The translations under genes and the position numbers were made by a program. Under the pieces are notes generated by a model that did no database searches, had not been told where the DNA came from, and saw nothing but the letters and a program-made list of their open reading frames with translations. A stretch of DNA of 64,000 nt from Amycolatopsis sp. 195334CR (lineage in GTDB: Bacteria; Actinomycetota; Actinomycetes; Mycobacteriales; Pseudonocardiaceae), in NCBI RefSeq assembly GCF_017309385.1, contig NZ_JAFJMJ010000002.1:310001-374000 (forward strand), given 5' to 3'. The stretch's first letter is position 1, and the number at the start of each line of letters is the position of its first letter. This document shows, piece by piece, positions 3,439 to 54,225 of the stretch.

Positions 3439-4604
3439 CCGTCGTACTGCTGGAGGCGTTGTCGTTCGGGCTGGGCCGCCTCGCCGACGCGGCTGCTTCG
3501 CTGGGCCGGCGCCTGGTGTTGTTCACCGGTGACCGGTCGATCTACCGGCACGAGCTCCGGTCGTCACCGGTCGAGGTGGTCGACGTCGACACCTTCGACG
3601 CAAACGCTTGCACCACGGCACTTTCCCGGGTATCCGACCTGGCGGGCCTGATCAGCTCGACCGACACCTGGGCCATCCCGGGCGCCCGGCTGGCCGCCGA
3701 CTTCGGCCTGCCGGGCCCGCCGGTCGAAGCCGTGCGAACGCTCCGGGACAAGGCCCGGGTGCGGCAACTCCTGCACGCGCGGGGCTTGAGCCGGGGGACC
3801 GCCGTCGACGCTTCGGCCGCGTTGACGGACTTCCCGTTGGTGGTCAAGGATTCGGCGGGCACGTCCTCGCGGGACGTGTCGCTGGTGCATTCGGCTGAGG
3901 AGTTGCGGGCGGTGCTGTCGTCGGCGGGGCCGTTGAAGGGACGGCTGATCGCGGAGCCGTTCCTGGCCGGGCCGGTGTACAGCGCGGAAACGCTCACCTG
4001 GGCCGGGCAGACGCGGCTGCTCGGCGTGTCGAGCCGCCAGCTGTCGCGGGAGTTCCGGTTCCGGGAGGAGTCGGCGGCCTTCCCGGTCGCGTTCGGGGAC
4101 AAGGACAGCGAGGTGCTGCGGGCCTGGGTGGCGGAGGTGCTGGCCGTGGCCGGGCACGAGCGGGGCTTCGCGCACGTGGAGTTCGTCCTGACCGGCGCGG
4201 GACCCGAGCTGGTCGAGATCAACGCGCGCATCGGGGGCGCGCTCGTCGGTGAGGCGCTGTGCCGTTCGCTGGGCACCAACGTCTACGAGGCGATGGTGCA
4301 GATGGCGCTGGGGGCGCGCCCGGCGCTGCTGGACTCCCCGGTGCCGGGAGGCCCGGCGGTGGCGTTCAGCCTCATCTACCCCGCGCGACCGGGACGCTTA
4401 CGCGGCTGGTCCGGCTTGGACGCGCTGTCCGCGTACCCCGGCGACCCGGAGTGGTACCCGACCGCGGCGGCCGGCGACACGATCACCGCCTTGCCGGACC
4501 AACGTGCGTGCACAGGCCTCGTCCTGGTGCACGGCGATACCGCGGAACTGGCCGCCCACCGAGCACTCGCCGCGGCCGCCTCCATCCACCCCCTGATCGA
4601 CTAA
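3435..4604 (+). CDS. ATP-grasp carboxylate-amine ligase
   Basis: 389 residues; ATG overlaps the PLP-enzyme stop (ATGA). The ATP-grasp core is visible: FPLVVKDSAGTSSRDVSLV (ATP-binding lysine and glycine-rich loop), LIAEPFLAGPVYSAE, and the metal-binding end HVEFVLTGAGPELVEINAR with the usual E-x-N pair. An N-terminal Rossmann-like preATP-grasp domain precedes it. Such enzymes join a carboxylate to an amine through an acyl-phosphate. Being the last gene of an uptake/PLP operon, it probably condenses the PLP enzyme's product with another acid; the product is unknown. Its TAA (4602-4604) overlaps the stop of the convergent exporter gene. Confidence 0.88.
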   Translation: MTVVLLEALSFGLGRLADAAASLGRRLVLFTGDRSIYRHELRSSPVEVVDVDTFDANACTTALSRVSDLAGLISSTDTWAIPGARLAADFGLPGPPVEAVRTLRDKARVRQLLHARGLSRGTAVDASAALTDFPLVVKDSAGTSSRDVSLVHSAEELRAVLSSAGPLKGRLIAEPFLAGPVYSAETLTWAGQTRLLGVSSRQLSREFRFREESAAFPVAFGDKDSEVLRAWVAEVLAVAGHERGFAHVEFVLTGAGPELVEINARIGGALVGEALCRSLGTNVYEAMVQMALGARPALLDSPVPGGPAVAFSLIYPARPGRLRGWSGLDALSAYPGDPEWYPTAAAGDTITALPDQRACTGLVLVHGDTAELAAHRALAAAASIHPLID

Positions 4605-53175: not shown

Positions 53176-53385
53176 ATGGCGCACGAGGTCGAGCACCAGC
53201 AGTTCAACGCGGACCGGATCCTGGCCGGCTGTGCCATCGGCTCCGGCCTGGCCAGCCTGGTCGCCGGTTTTGTCACCACCGACGAGATGCTGATGCCGAT
53301 GTTCAAGCTCGGCAACGACGTGCTCTTCTGGGGCGGCGGGATCCTGCTGGTGCTGGGCGTGCTGTTCGCCGTCGTCCGGGACTAG
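53176..53385 (+). CDS. Small two-helix membrane protein (69 aa)
   Basis: ATG 53176 after a GGGGGGAAG-type site. A short polar N terminus (MAHEVEHQQFNADR) is followed by two hydrophobic helices (ILAGCAIGSGLASLVAGFV and VLFWGGGILLVLGVLFAVV) joined by DEMLMPMFKLG. No family recognised. Its stop codon TAG is part of a CTAG that begins the palindromic element at 53382, and the convergent neighbour's stop lies in the matching CTAG at the far end. Confidence 0.72.
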   Translation: MAHEVEHQQFNADRILAGCAIGSGLASLVAGFVTTDEMLMPMFKLGNDVLFWGGGILLVLGVLFAVVRD

Positions 53386-53549
53386 TGGTCACCGCCGGAA
53401 GACCTTCGTGGGTATCGGCGGATTCAGGTTTCCGGTGGGCGTGCCGCGCCGAGGCCCTCGTACCGAGTTGTACTCGGGACTTGGCGCGGTGCGTCCACCG
53501 GGAAGCTGGGCCGTCGAGACCCCGAAAGACTTCCGGCGGTGACCACTAG
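53382..53549. mobile_element. MITE-like palindromic element with CTAG at both ends
   Basis: 168 bp. The outer 20 bp at each end are perfect inverted repeats (53382-53401 and 53530-53549); inside, the two arms keep pairing imperfectly to a small 6-bp central hairpin (53463-53477), so the whole element folds back on itself. It encodes nothing. CTAG at each end fits a 4-bp target duplication of the YTAR kind made by IS5-family transposases, leaving a 160-bp element with 16-bp terminal repeats. Without it, the two flanking genes would end tail-to-tail in a single CTAG containing both TAG stops. Confidence 0.72.
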
Positions 53550-53863
53550 CTTTCCGCCCAGGTCCGGGACCAGGACTCCAGCGGGAGCAGGGCGGCGACG
53601 AGGTCGGTGCCGAGCGCGGTGAGGTGGTAGCCGTCGGTGGTCTGGGTGACCAGGCCGGCGTCGGTGAGTTCGGCGAGCCGGGTGGTCAGCACGCTCGACG
53701 ACATCTGGCCGCAACGCCGTTGCAGTTCCCGGAAACCGGCCGAGCCCTGGTGCAGTTCCCAGATCACGCGCAGCGCCCACCGCCGGCCGAGCAGGTCCAG
53801 CGCGGCCATGATCGGCCGGCCGGTGGTGGACCCGCGGACCGGCCTGCCCGGCTTCGGGGTCAC
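53546..53863 (-). CDS. HxlR family transcriptional regulator
   Basis: 105 residues from GTG 53863, whose GTGA overlaps the stop of the upstream gene. HxlR winged-helix features: PIMAALDLLGRRWALRVIWELHQGSAGFRELQRRCGQMSSSVLTTRLAELTDAGLV and YHLTALGTDLVAAL; it lacks the usual N-terminal cysteine. Its stop codon lies in the CTAG at the edge of the palindromic element. It is co-transcribed with a SnoaL-like protein, a likely target of its regulation. Confidence 0.88.
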   Translation of the reverse strand: MTPKPGRPVRGSTTGRPIMAALDLLGRRWALRVIWELHQGSAGFRELQRRCGQMSSSVLTTRLAELTDAGLVTQTTDGYHLTALGTDLVAALLPLESWSRTWAES

Positions 53864-54225
53864 GGCCGCGCGCTCGGCAGGGGAGTCGCCCGCAGTGCGG
53901 CACCCATTTCGGCGATCTTCTGCTGCAGCAGGGAAAGCGGGCGCAGCATCAGGGTCGCCTCGACGAGGTGGTCCGACGAGTCGTAGCGCTCGTCGAGCAC
54001 GCCCCGGAGCCCGCCGCTGGAGAAGAACGTGGTGACGTGCGGCCACGAACCGACCTCGCGGTCCGGCGTGATCTTCCGCAGTACTCCGGAGATCAGGCCG
54101 AACAGGTGCGCCACGTCGGCCCGGCCCGCGTAGTCGGCGACGGGCGAGTGGAAGCGGACGTCGTCGGCCAGCAGCGCGGCCAGCCCGGCCTCGTCCCGGT
54201 CGCGCAGCAGGGGAAGCAGCGTCAT
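53860..54225 (-). CDS. Nuclear transport factor 2 / SnoaL-like family protein
   Basis: 121 residues. A cone-shaped NTF2 fold is suggested by AGLAALLADDVRFHSPVADYAGRADVAHLFGLISGVL and the later beta strands (YDSSDHLVEATLMLRPLSLLQQKIAEMGAAL). Proteins of this group are small-molecule binding proteins or isomerase/hydrolase-like enzymes. It overlaps the HxlR gene by 4 nt; function beyond the fold is unknown. Confidence 0.82.
   Translation of the reverse strand: MTLLPLLRDRDEAGLAALLADDVRFHSPVADYAGRADVAHLFGLISGVLRKITPDREVGSWPHVTTFFSSGGLRGVLDERYDSSDHLVEATLMLRPLSLLQQKIAEMGAALRATPLPSARP

Follow-up and report, generated by a model that had tools for sequence, protein, structure and literature searches.

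A 168-bp palindrome at 53382-53549 of a 64,000-nucleotide stretch of the Amycolatopsis sp. 195334CR genome (contig NZ_JAFJMJ010000002.1, positions 310,001 to 374,000; hereafter the window) lies between two convergent genes, and each of its terminal CTAGs holds the stop codon of the adjoining gene. The initial annotation of this locus took the palindrome for a miniature inverted-repeat transposable element (MITE) which had split a stop codon shared by both genes. The locus raises the question of what kind of element this is, how it reaches such places, and whether its structure serves a function. Its perfect 20-bp inverted ends (CTAGTGGTCACCGCCGGAAG at 53382-53401, with the exact reverse complement at 53530-53549) and the two stop codons can be read directly from the sequence and the gene calls, and the element has no coding capacity. 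Folded as DNA, the window hairpin reaches -75.9 kcal/mol (z=-13.3), which none of 200 dinucleotide shuffles equals; as RNA it reaches -136.6 (z=-13.8) on the plus strand versus -116.1 on the minus strand. The fold along the whole length is not a product of chance.

The element is mobile. In its own genome (G000), a search returned 21 rows that fall into 17 distinct places; 15 of these were taken as family copies with 80-100% identity, and the nearest relative (G004) carries the family at 14 places, in agreement with the dispersed non-coding element that had been proposed. For the 14 other G000 copies, all flanks were located in G004, where 10 sites are clean and empty; the L003 site is empty with one side weakly matched, and the sites of L005, L013, and L014 hold 23 bases, at L013 resembling a small element remnant. 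Conversely, eight of the 14 G004 copies have clean empty sites in G000, where the L075 site holds a local repeat; the comparison was uninformative for four truncated copies, whose borders are undefined, and the one match listed for L072 is a 69% match. With these 18 clean empty sites, movement since the separation of G000 and G004, and hence a mobile hairpin element, is settled. Short, dispersed, non-coding, with terminal inverted repeats and with filled and empty orthologous sites, it shares these features with MITEs. Family matches occur in 16 of 60 genomes (the own genome included), all within one genus of 23.

Beyond this family, the window's loop pattern recurs at 74 loci of named genomes in Amycolatopsis, Actinophytocola, Actinokineospora, and Actinocrispum. 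An alignment of 68 loci with the window copy reveals the common core GATCCAGGT..CTGG..CTCGTACCGGGTTGTACTCGGG..CCAG..CCTGGGC; the outer parts of the arms differ between families, most of which are bordered by CTAG-like bases. Applied to 200 genomes of the order with strict filters and 18 candidates scored per genome, a covariance model of 35 cores finds matches in 33, belonging to 18 of 60 genera, and several of the more distant matches retain CTAG borders and a similar loop. In the own genome, additional families combine this core with different ends. Judged from these alignments, the window element is a member of a superfamily of hairpins of ~168 nt in soil actinobacteria that combine a conserved core with differing, CTAG-bordered ends. 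No Rfam model reaches its gathering score on the hairpins; the sole matches are weak and miRNA-like. Two hairpin queries found no match in plasmids, one sister-family query (the window element not being among the queries) found none in phages, and viral contigs gave 0 matches to the loop pattern.

The way in which the arms vary points to selection on one folded strand. Both sides have changed in 29 of the 41 stem pairs, and none of 500 shuffles reaches any of the five observed covariation measures. Tallied within the hairpins of these families alone, and after a pairing step that gave G.T and A.C the same score, the transition-type mismatches of the arms show a G.T:A.C ratio of 274:18 in 25 full-length window-family copies (117:15 in the outer 35 bases alone), 306:40 in 30 non-redundant superfamily members, and 206:5 in 20 copies of sister families (32:1 by columns). 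The 25 copies, 15 from G000 and 10 from G004 with the truncated L073, L076, L077, and L078 of G004 omitted, also served for the fold comparison: the core (plus) strand gives the better fold in 25/25 of them and in 20/20 copies of the other families. A duplex palindrome is blind to the difference, since each G.T of one strand corresponds to an A.C of its complement; the excess of G.T on one strand therefore indicates that one folded strand is under selection. This sequence pattern makes a functional folded single strand likely, and the number of tolerated wobble pairs makes RNA more likely than single-stranded DNA.

The same counts bear on the view that we are dealing with an ordinary MITE of an IS5-type insertion sequence (IS), in which the palindrome would be a functionless by-product of one duplicated IS end and the arms would have remained paired via template switching. 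CTAG repeats, inverted ends, the lack of coding capacity, and IS5-type ends in two sister families are what such a MITE would show. However, double-stranded changes treat G.T and A.C alike, yet the one-strand excess amounts to 15:1 and 41:1, and when four ISs were compared by blastn with the 69 aligned hairpins, no match to the core emerged beyond the 21-base ends described below. We consider an ordinary MITE improbable.

Stop codons are overrepresented at the junctions. Across 464 kb of the own genome, 241 CTAG/CTNAG sites are non-coding, and 82 of them carry a gene stop; this background, which includes the element's own two CTAGs, compares with 63 of 103 copies when all groups are pooled (p=4.9e-6). 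Individually, the window family has a stop at the junction in 17 of 32 copies (p=0.049; the orthologous duplicates L022, L024, L027, L035, and L036 were left out) and the short forms in 6 of 12 (7 at a looser cut). Among superfamily members it is 40 of 59, with the stop inside an exact CTAG/CTNAG; this count covers 59 of the 74 loci, the rest being too close to an edge, is set against the background of the own genome only, and is not fully independent, as many near-identical copies come from one species. The enrichment stems in part from target choice and selection against in-gene insertions, because the target motif itself contains stop triplets.

A very stable fold at gene ends would also suit a two-way transcription terminator or an mRNA-stability hairpin kept for the benefit of the host. 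Against such a role, the gene that ends at the element may be to the left or to the right of the folded strand (27 left and 24 right, n=59, in the superfamily; 4 left and 14 right, n=32, in the window family), and the fold is therefore not simply that gene's terminator. Moreover, the close relative lacks most copies, and the window sequence has no U-run 3' of the hairpin. A host terminator thus appears very improbable to us.

With respect to the insertion mechanism, the comparison supports a target of the CTAG/CTNAG type: insertion sites have CTAG in some cases and the five-base form CTNAG in most. A short repeat flanks the copies, and CTAG is present on both sides in seven of them (L001, L003, L007, L015, L068, L079, and L147), but the predicted clean target duplication finds no support as the rule. 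Among 30 filled/empty pairs of G000 and G004, 19 clean sites with a 3-6 bp site were counted, and left and right repeats are identical at one of them, or at two if L068 is read in a four-base frame. The empty site corresponds to the left repeat at six of the 19, to the right repeat at six, and to both at one; the 12-base flanks are identical between the two genomes in 403 of 456 positions. Left and right repeats differ by 28 transitions and 11 transversions, some of which are due to the fixed five-base frame at CTAG sites. Taken at face value, the pattern would fit strand exchange through a coupling sequence, and a normal duplication would need unusually fast divergence of the repeats.

Insertion of Tn916-type elements involves such a coupling sequence. 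Transferred to our hairpins, an excised form with a four- or five-base CTNAG spacer would enter a CTNAG by strand exchange, leaving the bases of the target on one side and those of the donor on the other. The even split of empty sites between left and right repeat and the kinds of base differences between the repeats are in line with this route, as are L065 and L067, where the target deviates from CTNAG, yet the other side is still CTAG-like. The likeness to Tn916 lies in one side carrying target bases and the other differing; unlike Tn916, the element is non-coding, and no tyrosine recombinase was identified, none having been searched for. At L009, L074, and L133, neither side is a clean fit; ISs of the DDE type match two sister families, and drift after a normal duplication could also give unequal repeats. 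We regard recombination of this kind as rather unlikely.

The ends offer a link to transposases. Two sister families have 21-base ends in common with PF13340-type ISs of G000 or G004 (L172 with L149/L156 at 20/21, L206 with L150 at 19/21), and these ISs likewise sit in CTAG. IS5-type mobilization is plausible. On balance, and with slightly more belief than doubt, we favor a non-autonomous mobile hairpin whose folded strand matters and whose movement is probably due to an IS5-like, CTAG-targeting transposase acting in trans. Under this model, a transposase of the IS5 group provided in trans would recognize the hairpin ends and direct them to CTAG. A new copy would be tolerated because CTAG/CTNAG contains a stop codon in one direction or in both and the flanking repeat preserves a stop to the left and to the right of the insertion. 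Families would have swapped their ends, and perhaps their transposase too, whereas the hairpin core would be retained for what its folded single strand contributes to the spread of the element itself.

Several observations weigh against this model. The window family, taken alone, is only marginally enriched at stop codons; the flanking repeats are mostly non-identical, which a DDE transposase would not produce at insertion; and the hairpins L172 and L206 occur in species other than those of the matching ISs. G000 and G004 together have 14 PF13340 loci, the sole IS family searched, and none of them is the IS with matching ends that the initial annotation had expected. The distant member L268 folds equally well on either strand, and the transcript or single-strand intermediate of the model is hypothetical. 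More tentatively still, the hairpins may constitute an undescribed class of mobile elements, ~168 nt long, with a folded single strand in the life cycle, an RNA-like core, ends exchanged between transposase systems, landing at stop codons, and four- or five-base coupling-sequence exchange; we think of this as a possibility rather than an expectation.

Two loci with IS-related sequences are recorded here in their own right. An IS5-type IS (L149, G000 contig C1, ~1431-2383, ends GGGCGTGTCCTG) lies in a CTAG exactly at the stop codon of a 475-residue gene, which by eye we take to be that of a transporter; IS5-type ISs may use stop codons, too. In G030, a hairpin (L041, near 1501-1558) adjoins a remnant of an IS5-type transposase (weak PF13586 match, below cut-off), and a CTAG is common to the hairpin and the IS-like end.

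MITEs are usually regarded as inert IS leftovers. A strand-specific fold and a core kept across genera under changing terminal repeats point instead to a role of the folded strand and to swapping of ends between transposases. We find this strand-polar core, present across the order, more interesting than the pair of stop codons from which we started. The findings further suggest a simple, harmless lifestyle for mobile DNA in gene-dense, GC-rich genomes, which consists in landing on a motif that frequently holds a stop codon and leaving a stop on each side. Owing to the imperfect flanking repeats, the mechanism of insertion can be tested directly.

Among known systems, MITEs of the IS5 family use YTAR/CTAG targets. 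Our hairpins resemble them in their CTAG borders and in the ends that two sister families have in common with PF13340-type ISs; they differ in having one core under differing ends, strand-polar G.T pairing, mostly imperfect repeats, and no IS found for the window family. Mycobacterial interspersed repetitive units (MIRUs) insert at stop-codon sites and are shorter units in operons; insertion at stop codons in an actinobacterium is thus common to both, and the whole-length hairpin is distinct from MIRUs as they are generally known. Strand-specific folds are a property of repetitive extragenic palindromic (REP) sequences and REPINs, and the YPAL elements of Yersinia prefer places just after stop codons.

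YPAL/RU-2 are intergenic, dispersed elements of ~167-168 bp with empty and filled sites between strains (PMC2759123, PMC2229807). By description, without sequence comparison, they are nearest to the window element in size and dispersal, in unrelated hosts; unlike YPAL as described there, the window element is a hairpin over its whole length, has CTAG/CTNAG borders, is actinobacterial, and belongs to an order-wide core. REPs have 20-40 bp and a GTAG or CGTC tag (PMC3733652). REP/REPIN elements with their RAYT transposases (PMC3733652, PMC3116915) are extragenic palindromes in dispersed positions, for which movement in trans is presumed. Dispersal as extragenic palindromes and presumed movement in trans are shared features; judged on length and ends, RAYT genes not having been searched, our hairpins differ from these REPs in reaching ~175 bp, in their CTAG/CTNAG borders, and in repeats on both sides. 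Among open-licence PubMed Central papers, we found no account of these hairpins.

At the window locus (Table 1), the element is absent from three relatives, G004, G229, and G242. In a search of 80 genomes of the genus, strong matches to the membrane-protein gene outside the own genome come from these three, and a partial match from G269. A single ancestral CTAG with both stops, as originally postulated, is not seen in them: the membrane-protein gene ends in TGA in all three, in G004 even though 69/69 residues are identical, and the letters preceding the insertion were not recovered from these genomes. G229 and G242 have retained the genes but do not carry the element, and their HxlR stop lies a few bases further on than in the window, the C-terminus in G229 being ..WAARQA versus ..WAES. 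A similar intact arrangement had been claimed for 4601-4604 of the window; it does combine both stops (TAA forward, CTA reverse), but reads CTAA, one base off CTAG. In G004 (L047/L300, syntenic to window 53382-54225), the HxlR and SnoaL-like genes have shrunk to a short remnant beside the membrane-protein gene.

Table 1. The hairpin element and its neighbor genes in the window
Feature	Position	Strand	Remarks
Small membrane-protein gene, 69 aa	53176..53385	+	Stop TAG at 53383-53385 inside left CTAG; no Pfam family matched
Left CTAG, flanking repeat	53382..53385		
Hairpin element proper, 160 bp	53386..53545	+	Best-folding polarity is the plus strand
Conserved core, covariance model R1	53407..53526	+	113.2 bits plus, 46.2 minus; window copy is itself among the 35 sequences from which R1 was built
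Conserved loop region TCGTACCGAGTTGTACTCGGG	53458..53478	+	
Right CTAG, flanking repeat	53546..53549		HxlR stop inside (plus-strand CTA, 53546-53548)
HxlR-type regulator gene, ends at element	53546..53863	-	PF01638, E=2.6e-13, 50.1 bits, cut-off 20.8

Shorter forms with the same ends measure between 22 and 175 bp. In G004, two forms of 22 bp (L128 3032-3053 and L129 3240-3261) are identical in sequence, inversely oriented, and located at unrelated places; either the ends can move by themselves, or one and the same internal deletion occurred twice. Flanks of 11 short forms from G004 were also compared with G000; several led to element-free sites and others aligned poorly. Single ends in G004 and G000 were considered as traces of an autonomous partner and discarded, being mostly short forms or chance among the matches listed; this single-end search established no second ends for L131, L134, L139, L142, L145, and L146.

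On contig C1 of G004, hairpins of like orientation are grouped into long blocks, with the 21 copies forming 4 runs (P=0.002), possibly tied to the direction of replication. The test was chosen after the data had been seen and with origins unmapped, and an ordering by replichore is not relied on. G000 C1, with 14 runs among 18 copies (P=0.99), shows no such blocks. Values for G000 C2, G008, G019, G020, G014, G141, and G030 range from P 0.10 to 1.0, and G022 and G031 have too few copies. Finally, a glycine riboswitch (RF00504, 53.9 bits, above cut-off; L355 384-485, minus strand) is located ~150 bases from a hairpin copy on G000:C1 near 271.2 kb.
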